This document shows, in pieces, positions 20,383 to 23,662 of a stretch of DNA of 64,000 nt. Positions within the stretch are counted from its first letter, which is position 1. Each line of letters starts with the position of its first letter. Position numbers and translations under genes: made by a program. The stretch comes from Chloroflexota bacterium (GTDB taxonomy: Bacteria > Chloroflexota > Anaerolineae > Anaerolineales > UBA11579), in NCBI GenBank assembly GCA_016191875.1, contig JACPVG010000006.1, positions 1 to 64,000 of the forward strand, read 5' to 3'. The notes under the pieces are model-generated. The model saw nothing but the letters and a program-made list of their open reading frames with translations. It was not told the origin of the DNA and made no database searches.

Positions 20383-20754
20383 ATGCCAGCGCTTCGATTG
20401 ATTGGATATGTCGTTGCCGGGTTTGCAGTAGTCTTCGGATTCCTGTTCATTCTGGGCGCGTTTAGCCCCGACGGTTCAACCGGCTGGTTGCTCACCGGTT
20501 CCATTCTCACTCTGATAGGCTTAGGAATTATTTGGCTTGTCTCGAGGGGGGCTGCCTCTGCATCAACCACCCACCAGACGAACACTACACTCAAGCTGGA
20601 CCTGCCGGCAGACGTCAATATGGAACGCTTCAAATGCCAGGATTGCGGTGCGCAACTGTCGATGGACAATGTGAAAATGGTGGCTGGCGCACCGATGGTG
20701 GACTGCCCCTATTGCGGCGCGGCCTACCAACTATCGGAGAACCCGAAATGGTGA
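20383..20754 (+). CDS. Small membrane protein with C-terminal zinc ribbon
   Basis: Two hydrophobic segments then CQDCGAQLSMDNVKMVAGAPMVDCPYCGAAY. Confidence 0.8.
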   Translation: MPALRLIGYVVAGFAVVFGFLFILGAFSPDGSTGWLLTGSILTLIGLGIIWLVSRGAASASTTHQTNTTLKLDLPADVNMERFKCQDCGAQLSMDNVKMVAGAPMVDCPYCGAAYQLSENPKW

Positions 20755-22448
20755 GGCCCGCCAAGGCGCTCCGACTCGCTTTCCGAGTTGCCCTTCCGGC
20801 CGTCGTGATGCTGACGCTCCTGCTCCCGCTCCCAGCCGAGCCTGCTGCGGCCCAGACCTATGCTTTTTCGTTGGACAGCGAAACCGTGGATGTCTATTGG
20901 CAGAACAATGGCACCCTTTCACTGGGTTACGAATTTGTGTTTACCAATGCCGCCTATGCCAGCCCGCTGGATTTTGTTGATGTTGGAATGCCCACTTCGG
21001 GAGTAAACCCACCAGACGTGAGCGCAACGATTAATGGTATTGCCATCACCCACATAGCCGACTCTCCCTACGTGACCAACGGCATTGAGCTGGGTCTTGG
21101 AGTCAATGCCATTCGCCCCGGAGATACGGGTGTCGTTCGAGTCCAGGTTTCCGAAATCAACAATGTGCTCTATGTGGACTCTACCGACCCAGACTATGCC
21201 AGTGCGGTGTTCTCCCCTACCTGGTTTGGGAGCGAGTTTGTGTCCGGCTCTACAAACTTTACGGTCACCTTCCATCTGCCGGCCGGGGTGCAGCCAGACG
21301 AGCCTCGCTTCCACCGTGCCCCCTATGGCTGGCCGGAGGAGCCGATTACTGGTTTTGACAACGAAGGAAGGATTACATATACGTGGCAAAACTCGGTCGC
21401 TAATGGCTATACGCAATATCTATTTGGGGCATCGTTCCCGGCCAGACTGGTTCCATCGAGTGCCATCGTTCAGCCATCGCTCTGGCAGCGCCTGGGGATT
21501 GAGCCGGAGGCGCTGATCGGGTTTGGCATCTTCTGTACAGTAGGTCTGTTTATTTTCGGCATCCCGGTGATCGCAATCAGCGGAGAGCGCCGAAGAAAAA
21601 TGAAGTACCTCCCCCCCAGAATCGCCGTTCAGGGCCACGGCATCAAGCGCGGCCTGACCGCCATCGAAGCGGCAATTCTTCTAGAGCAGCCGATGGATCG
21701 CATACTGGCGATGATCCTGTTCGCTACCCTCAAGAAGAGTGCGGCGGCCGTCATGACAGAAAAGCCACTAAGGCTTGAGGTCGCGGCCCCTTTGCCTCCC
21801 GACTTGCGGCCCTACGAGACCGACTTCCTGGATGCCATGAAGGAAACCAACACCGCCAAGCGACGCAAATTGCTGCAGGAAGCGATGATCAGACTGATAA
21901 GGAGCGTGGCGCAGAAGATGAAAGGCTTCAGCCATCGTGAGACCGTCTCCTACTACAAGGACATTATGGAGCGCGCCTGGCAGGAAGTCGAAGCCGCAAA
22001 GACCCCAGAAATGCTATCCGAGACTTATGACAAGGTCATGGAATGGACCATGTTGGATAAAGAGTACGAGGATCGAAGTCGGGACGTTTTTCAAAACCGG
22101 CCAATCTATGCCCCACACTGGTACGGGCGATATAACCCGACCTACGGCTCGCGCCCATCGGGTACATCGGCAAAGTCTGGCGCTCCTGCCTCACGCCCGA
22201 CTCCTGGCGGAGTTGGACTGCCGCACCTCCCGGGTTCAGATTTTGCCGCCTCAATTGTCAACGGAGTCCAGAATTTTTCCGCCGGCGTCATCGGCAATCT
22301 TTCAGACTTCACTGGCGGCGTCACAAAAACCACCAATCCGCCGCCAGTCACTTCGACCTCCAGCTACAGGAGCAGTGGCGGTAGCGGATGCGCATGTGCC
22401 TGCGCCTGTGCTGGCTGCGCGTGCGCATGCGCCGGAGGAGGCCGATAA
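20748..22448 (+). CDS. Secreted/membrane protein (signal, ectodomain, TM, cytoplasmic helical domain) with Cys-Ala repeat tail
   Basis: Start at MVRPAKALRLAFRVALPAVVMLTLLLPLPAEPAAAQ, overlapping the upstream TGA; C-terminus SGGSGCACACACAGCACACAGGGR*. Upstream extension in the track ORF is not supported. Confidence 0.85.
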   Translation: MVRPAKALRLAFRVALPAVVMLTLLLPLPAEPAAAQTYAFSLDSETVDVYWQNNGTLSLGYEFVFTNAAYASPLDFVDVGMPTSGVNPPDVSATINGIAITHIADSPYVTNGIELGLGVNAIRPGDTGVVRVQVSEINNVLYVDSTDPDYASAVFSPTWFGSEFVSGSTNFTVTFHLPAGVQPDEPRFHRAPYGWPEEPITGFDNEGRITYTWQNSVANGYTQYLFGASFPARLVPSSAIVQPSLWQRLGIEPEALIGFGIFCTVGLFIFGIPVIAISGERRRKMKYLPPRIAVQGHGIKRGLTAIEAAILLEQPMDRILAMILFATLKKSAAAVMTEKPLRLEVAAPLPPDLRPYETDFLDAMKETNTAKRRKLLQEAMIRLIRSVAQKMKGFSHRETVSYYKDIMERAWQEVEAAKTPEMLSETYDKVMEWTMLDKEYEDRSRDVFQNRPIYAPHWYGRYNPTYGSRPSGTSAKSGAPASRPTPGGVGLPHLPGSDFAASIVNGVQNFSAGVIGNLSDFTGGVTKTTNPPPVTSTSSYRSSGGSGCACACACAGCACACAGGGR

Positions 22449-23662
22449 TGCTAGAGCGGGTGAGAGAACTGTTTGCGAGGCCTGCGCCAGCCCTACCTCT
22501 GCCACCGGGGGTGTATCATTATCAGGCTCCAGCCAACGACCCTGAAAACTACCGGATGCATCTTCGCATCGAAGCGGATGGCTCAGGATTTCTGCTGCTG
22601 AACGCGGCGACCGTCCTGCACCTGAACCAGACCGCGGCCGAGTACGCATACTTGTATGTCAAGCAAGCAGATGTGGACGAAGCGGCAGCCCACATCACCC
22701 AGCGATACCATGGGGTTCGCCGGGATGATGCCGCCGAACAATACGCGCAGTTCAAAGATCAGATCCACACTCTGCTGACTTCCCAGGATCTCGACCCCAT
22801 GATGCTTATTGGCTGCGACAGGGAATCCTTGTACGCAGGCGAACCATCCGCGCCATACCGTCTGGACTGTGCGCTGACATATGCCACACCCGGGTCCGCA
22901 GACCCCACCGTGGCCCCGATTCAGCGCGCCAACACCGAGCTGTCAACCCACCAATGGATCACCGTGCTGGACAAAGCCTGGCAGAACGGGATTCCGCATG
23001 TGATTTTCACAGGCGGAGAACCCACGCTGCGCAACGATCTGCCGGAGTTGATAGCCCACGCTGAACGGAACGGCCAGGTCACCGGGTTGCTCACCAGTGG
23101 GCACCGACTCAGCGAGTCGGGTTATCTCAAAGCGCTGCTCACCGCCGGCCTTGATCACACGTTGATCACGCTCACCGGCGAGCACCTCGACGCCTGGGGG
23201 GCCATATCCTCATTCACCTATTGGAAAGATTTGCTCAAGGAAGACATTTCTGTCGCCGCCCACATTACAATCAGCAACCAGAACTTCGGCGATGTCATCC
23301 AACTGTTCGATCGAATCGCTGAAGCCGGCATTTCTTCAATCTCCCTGACTGCGAACTCGGCGTCGTTGACACAGCTGCTTGAGCAAGCGCGTGAAGAAGC
23401 CGGCAGACGCGGCCTTGACCTGATATGGGACTTGCCCGTCCCCTACTCGGCCATGAACCCGGTGGCATTGGAGCTGGCCCAGGACGCCGAAGAGCGACAG
23501 ATCCCGGGCGCGGGGAAAGCCTGGCTGTATGTTGAGCCGGATGGCGATGTCCTGCCGTCTCAGGGAATTGATCATCCGCTGGGAAACATGCTGACGGCGA
23601 GCTGGGACGAAATCTGGGGGGAGGCCAGACGGTACCAGGAGCAATACTTGCGGCCAAAATAG
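22448..23662 (+). CDS. Radical SAM/SPASM-like protein lacking cluster cysteines, with PqqD-like N-terminal domain
   Basis: ATG overlaps upstream TAA (TAATG); PqqD-like GSGFLLLNAATVLHLNQTAAEYAYLY; IPHVIFTGGEPTLRNDLPELI; WLYVEPDGDVLPSQGIDHPLGNMLTASWDEIW. Only two Cys in the protein and no CxxxCxxC. Confidence 0.82.
   Translation: MLERVRELFARPAPALPLPPGVYHYQAPANDPENYRMHLRIEADGSGFLLLNAATVLHLNQTAAEYAYLYVKQADVDEAAAHITQRYHGVRRDDAAEQYAQFKDQIHTLLTSQDLDPMMLIGCDRESLYAGEPSAPYRLDCALTYATPGSADPTVAPIQRANTELSTHQWITVLDKAWQNGIPHVIFTGGEPTLRNDLPELIAHAERNGQVTGLLTSGHRLSESGYLKALLTAGLDHTLITLTGEHLDAWGAISSFTYWKDLLKEDISVAAHITISNQNFGDVIQLFDRIAEAGISSISLTANSASLTQLLEQAREEAGRRGLDLIWDLPVPYSAMNPVALELAQDAEERQIPGAGKAWLYVEPDGDVLPSQGIDHPLGNMLTASWDEIWGEARRYQEQYLRPK

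Follow-up and report, generated by a model that had tools for sequence, protein, structure and literature searches.

The Cys-Ala tail that closes a 566-aa, DUF2207-like membrane protein in the window (the whole stretch of 64,000 nt analysed here) was found to be under strong, near-absolute purifying selection at the protein level, as judged from its alignments, and is likely where a dedicated radical-SAM/SPASM maturase acts. This reading is based on gene linkage, conservation and the type of the enzyme. Since the tail is strictly conserved and almost always accompanied by a peptide-modifying kind of radical-SAM enzyme, and often by a catalytically dead copy as well, it is probably chemically modified, in a manner not described in the literature found.

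The tail protein gene occupies positions 20748-22448 of the forward strand, with codons beginning at multiples of 3 and the stop codon TAA at 22446-22448. The encoded protein consists of a signal peptide, an extracytoplasmic beta domain, one transmembrane helix, a helical cytosolic domain, a Ser/Gly linker and the tail. The signal peptide was predicted for residues 1-36 (20748-20855) from hydropathy and sequence reading, and the beta domain for residues 37-255 (20856-21512) from an AlphaFold model, whose pLDDT was mostly above 84 at residues 41-240. Hydropathy maxima were located at residues 7-30 and 251-280, the second being assigned to the predicted single transmembrane helix (21513-21587), which is followed by RRRK. 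Because of this single helix followed by RRRK, the positive-inside rule predicts that the C-terminal half of the protein, including the tail, is cytosolic. The helical domain carries a conserved GxGIKRGLTAxEA motif, the linker between this domain and the tail is disordered, and CC pairs are present in the transmembrane region of several relatives. The tail itself, GCACACACAGCACACAGGGR, forms the extreme C-terminus according to the sequence and alignments and is encoded by 22386-22445. It had been placed at 22378-22445 in a preliminary description, the start of which was 8 nt too early and fell in the middle of a codon. No meaningful Pfam or NCBIfam match was obtained for the tail protein. An APH(6) match in NCBIfam was noise (20.3 bits against a cut-off of 325). 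A fold search of the PDB with the tail protein was uninformative: the only Foldseek hits were weak and local ones of the beta domain, in which M1 aminopeptidases and subunits of oligosaccharyltransferase mostly reached a query-normalised TM-score of 0.2-0.25. Some tail proteins are longer (L127:5618-7918, L128 and L129; 736-778 aa) and match the extracytoplasmic beta domain a second time, and the complete long copy L127 keeps the Cys-Ala tail at its end.

The 20-residue end, G-CACACACA-G-CACACA-GGGR, is written in mixed codons in the window, as had been noticed before: cysteine is encoded by TGC five times and TGT twice, and alanine by GCA twice, GCC three times, GCT once and GCG once. An identical 19-residue end, CACACACAGCACACAGGGR, was present in all ten full-length orthologues that were retrieved by peptide patterns outside the tail, which share 33-61% identity and come from Chloroflexota, WOR-3 and Coatesbacteria. 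When homologues were found through the protein body alone and deduplicated, the tail was present in 86 of 86 distinct full-length sequences. The number of CA units varies from 3 to 5 before the glycine and from 3 to 4 after it. The commonest layout is (CA)4-G-(CA)3, in which the first block is sometimes (CA)5 or (CA)3, and a (CA)3-G-(CA)4 layout was seen in one divergent lineage. One tail ends in GGGSGR and another copy is cut to a single (CA)3 block; the copy in genome G436 also has a single terminal (CA)3 block, in a gene that is split between frames.

The comparison of synonymous and non-synonymous change proposed earlier for the orthologues bears on the level at which selection acts. Seventy-five canonical 19-residue tails were encoded by 75 different DNA sequences without one residue change (mean pS 0.78, pN 0.004); because no residue changes, we read the pN value as a residual of mutational paths among the six arginine codons. 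In an alignment of 20 sequences, pN was 0.004 in the tail, 0.41 in the adjacent upstream linker and 0.32 in the cytosolic domain; among other windows of 19 columns, the best had a pN of 0.098. In all four regions pS was about 0.7-0.8. Selection on the peptide, preferred to slippage of the DNA in the preliminary description, is thus strongly supported by a pN near zero, a saturated pS (pS 0.78-0.80 against pN 0.004) and retention in every distinct full-length homologue; neither frequent tail loss nor random composition, named there as refuting observations, was seen among the 86. A 26-nt pattern for the tail occurred once in the window genome. When 400 genomes of the phylum were scanned, 25 contained it, each match in those 25 being the end of a tail gene, and a reversed control pattern gave one match across all 400. 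For the order, six genomes without a tail gene were listed, and the tail pattern was absent from all of them. Twenty-seven matches on viral contigs were discarded as unrelated, none of these ending in the tail.

The second line of evidence is the association of the tail gene with an intact radical-SAM/SPASM enzyme. This enzyme carries Radical_SAM, SPASM and PqqD domains (PF05402 E 9.8e-7 in L006), and its CX3CX2C motif and SPASM cysteines were invariant in 17 aligned homologues, including the copy of the window genome on contig C28. Its closest solved relatives by sequence are SkfB, a sactipeptide maturase, and PqqE, followed by BlsE and SuiB. Nearly all relatives of the tail gene have the intact enzyme as well, usually directly downstream, and in the order of the window the pseudo-enzyme described below, and often a class I methyltransferase, come after it; the methyltransferase gene often closes the cluster. 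An intact enzyme gene was located beside or near the tail gene in all 24 pattern-found loci outside the window genome. Several Coatesbacteria loci (L009, L010, L245 and L246) had no enzyme nearby, and the genome of L009 encodes one elsewhere. When 151 genomes of the order were compared, the tail gene and the intact enzyme were either both present (89) or both absent (56) in 145 of them, giving a Fisher p of about 8e-34, a value that ignores shared ancestry. The six discordant genomes, three with the tail gene only and three with the enzyme only, are all drafts of 63-86% completeness.

In the window, the tail gene is flanked by two genes on the same strand. Upstream, at 20383-20754, is a gene for a small protein that has two hydrophobic segments near its N-terminus and a CxxC...CxxC zinc ribbon at its C-terminus; in most relatives, too, a homologue immediately precedes the tail gene. 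The window copy overlaps the tail gene start (ATGGTGA), and its product ends in ENPKW, which is EEPKW in most relatives. Directly downstream, with a TAATG overlap, the gene at 22448-23662 encodes a degenerate radical-SAM/SPASM protein of 404 aa with an N-terminal PqqD-like domain, as assigned from its sequence and an AlphaFold model (pTM 0.82), whose top fold matches in the PDB were SkfB, PqqE and SuiB. This pseudo-enzyme lacks the CX3CX2C and SPASM cysteines and scored 20.0 bits against the PqqD model PF05402, under the cut-off of 23.4. In the family of the window the cluster is split. One unit consists of the zinc ribbon, the tail gene and the pseudo-enzyme, and the other, of the intact enzyme and a short scaffold paralogue without a tail, is usually convergent and a few kb away. 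In the window genome this second unit maps to a different contig, away from its ends (C28:197091-199489), with the intact enzyme at C28:197091-198428. Because the intact enzyme of this family is a divergent subtype that adjoins the tail-less paralogue, its action on the window tail is an extrapolation. Enzymes of the window subtype were also seen to have a C-terminal extension of 72-81 residues with a Cys motif of its own, mostly GGGCSGCSGSCGT (L046:8918-10651, L001:13348-15036, L011, L103, L118, L131, L136-L139, L157 and L159). The tail-less paralogues beside that enzyme share a similar C-terminus in all cases, mostly ...TTFYG or ...ATFYG (L046:10669-11664, L001:12455-13351, L103, L113, L114, L118, L137-L139, L157 and L159).

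A related scaffold with a different cysteine repeat was recognised behind weak matches in the phylum WOR-3 (hhalign probability 99.7%, E 7e-26). Its C-terminus is built of ACHS units and ends in CVSGGAR/H in WOR-3, and two Chloroflexota genomes have an ACHS-type tail ending in CVSSV or CVSDF. These (ACHS)n scaffolds were located at L237:7016-8521, L238-L244, L257:8090-9808 and L258:4049-5794, and an intact radical-SAM/SPASM gene was directly downstream in eight of the ten loci examined; none was recognised at L239, where the sequence just downstream is partly masked, or at L244. Both the (CA)n and the (ACHS)n systems are present in genome G011. The recurrence of scaffold, cysteine repeat and enzyme with a different motif argues that the repeat would be the business end of the scaffold.

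Together, these components suggest a likely route. The signal peptide and the single transmembrane helix would leave the tail on the cytosolic side. Binding of the scaffold, or of its linker, would fall to the PqqD-like (RRE) domains, and the intact enzyme would act on the tail, with the pseudo-enzyme assisting it as a subunit or by presenting the substrate. The likeliest chemistry would be a succession of crosslinks formed by the cysteines, as thioethers to the neighbouring alanines in the manner of sacti- and ranthipeptides, and the outcome would be a rigid, thioether-laced tail kept on the membrane protein. Thioether formation is a guess, made because of the relatives of the enzyme and the invariant alanines. 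Extended to both repeats, we tentatively suggest, at somewhat less than even confidence, that the terminal (CA)n or (ACHS)n of DUF2207-like scaffolds may be converted by the intact radical-SAM enzyme (with its dead paralogue in the Chloroflexota (CA)n system) into a polythioether or metal-binding structure that remains attached to the protein for good; this structure would function on the membrane protein and stay unreleased. A further point against the maturase reading is that the candidate substrate is a membrane protein of 566 aa rather than a short precursor with a cleavable leader and a core.

Metal binding, disulfides and modification had all been considered for the tail in the preliminary description, and modification now appears to be the best supported of these because radical-SAM/SPASM enzymes are linked to the tail gene. 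The tail might instead remain unmodified and serve on the cytosolic face as a multidentate binder of soft metals or Fe-S clusters, or as a redox-active thiol cluster, with the enzyme acting on a different substrate. In its favour, seven thiols at regular CxC spacing make good ligands for Cu(I), Zn or Fe, the neighbouring gene encodes a zinc-ribbon protein, and the CC pairs in the membrane region of several relatives would also suit such a role. However, the alanines between the cysteines are invariant in all canonical tails, which goes beyond the need of a simple ligand, and both the tight co-occurrence of tail gene and radical-SAM enzyme and the presence of such an enzyme beside the sister scaffold with its different repeat speak against an unmodified tail, so that we consider this explanation unlikely.

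A release of the modified tail as a small molecule, in the manner of PQQ or mycofactocin, would make the protein a cofactor precursor, which is agreeable with the PqqD-like domain of the enzyme, the frequent class I methyltransferase gene at the cluster end and the PqqE and mycofactocin-maturase models among the families that the intact enzyme matches. However, the enzyme scored far under every NCBIfam cut-off shown, PqqE included (124.7 against 381 bits), peptidase genes did not stand out as regular neighbours (the systematic search covered the listed components only), and it would be wasteful to use a long, conserved membrane scaffold as a leader. Excision and release are thus quite improbable. 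The repeat could also be a product of slippage at the DNA level with no function as a peptide, and events of the slippage kind may still determine how many units there are, because 3, 4 or 5 CA units occur. As an origin of the tail itself, slippage is extremely improbable in view of the scrambled codons, one peptide being encoded by 75 distinct DNA sequences, the saturated pS beside a near-zero pN and the loss of the tail in 0 of the 86 homologues; a slippage or low-complexity artefact was ruled out by codon scrambling and pS/pN.

What is known of radical-SAM peptide maturases comes mainly from short peptides and from cofactors derived from peptides. Here, the candidate substrate is the unvarying C-terminus of a membrane protein that is itself large and conserved and occurs mostly in metagenome-assembled genomes. 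The best solved relatives by sequence and fold are the maturases of the sacti/ranthipeptide type, SkfB (6EFN), SuiB (5V1Q) and PqqE (6C8V), which share the order of RRE/PqqD-like, radical SAM and SPASM domains; as in those systems, a Cys-rich candidate substrate lies alongside the enzyme. The present case differs from all three in that the C-terminal end of a membrane protein of 566 aa would serve as substrate, in the strict alternation of Cys and Ala and, in Chloroflexota, in the dead paralogue beside the enzyme. Repeated-motif targets with dedicated radical-SAM enzymes are also known from the ACGX and His-Xaa-Ser (HxsA/B/C) systems, and the tail system resembles them in this respect. However, the window tail contains neither repeat, and the enzyme scored far under the corresponding NCBIfam models (61.7 against 400 bits for TIGR04340 and 58.8 against 267.9 bits for TIGR03977). 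The window gene at 22448-23662 shares with the family TIGR04347 a radical-SAM/SPASM-like nature and the pseudo-SAM label, but this gene is not a member (49.1 bits against a cut-off of 525).

The scaffold has a layout similar to DUF2207 (PF09972/PF20990). These Pfam models gave weak matches in seven of nine sister scaffolds (best E 1.4e-5), the L237 scaffold reaching 18.6 bits, under the gathering cut-off of 24.4; one of 20 tail proteins matched weakly (0.0019), and the window tail protein had no match to either model. In the open-access literature, no description was found of the tail protein, an alternating cysteine-rich C-terminus, 'pseudo-SAM' or ACGX. The nearest published pattern found is an Asp-Cys motif of up to six repeats in a peptide adjoining a radical-SAM enzyme (clusters 59 and 115, PMC9062424), in which the peptide is short, Asp takes the place of Ala, the neighbour is a recombinase and there is no membrane scaffold. 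The system described here pairs a dead partner enzyme in Chloroflexota with a second Cys-repeat pattern on a related scaffold and, if our reading is true, would represent a post-translational modification that works on a membrane protein and not as a freed peptide.
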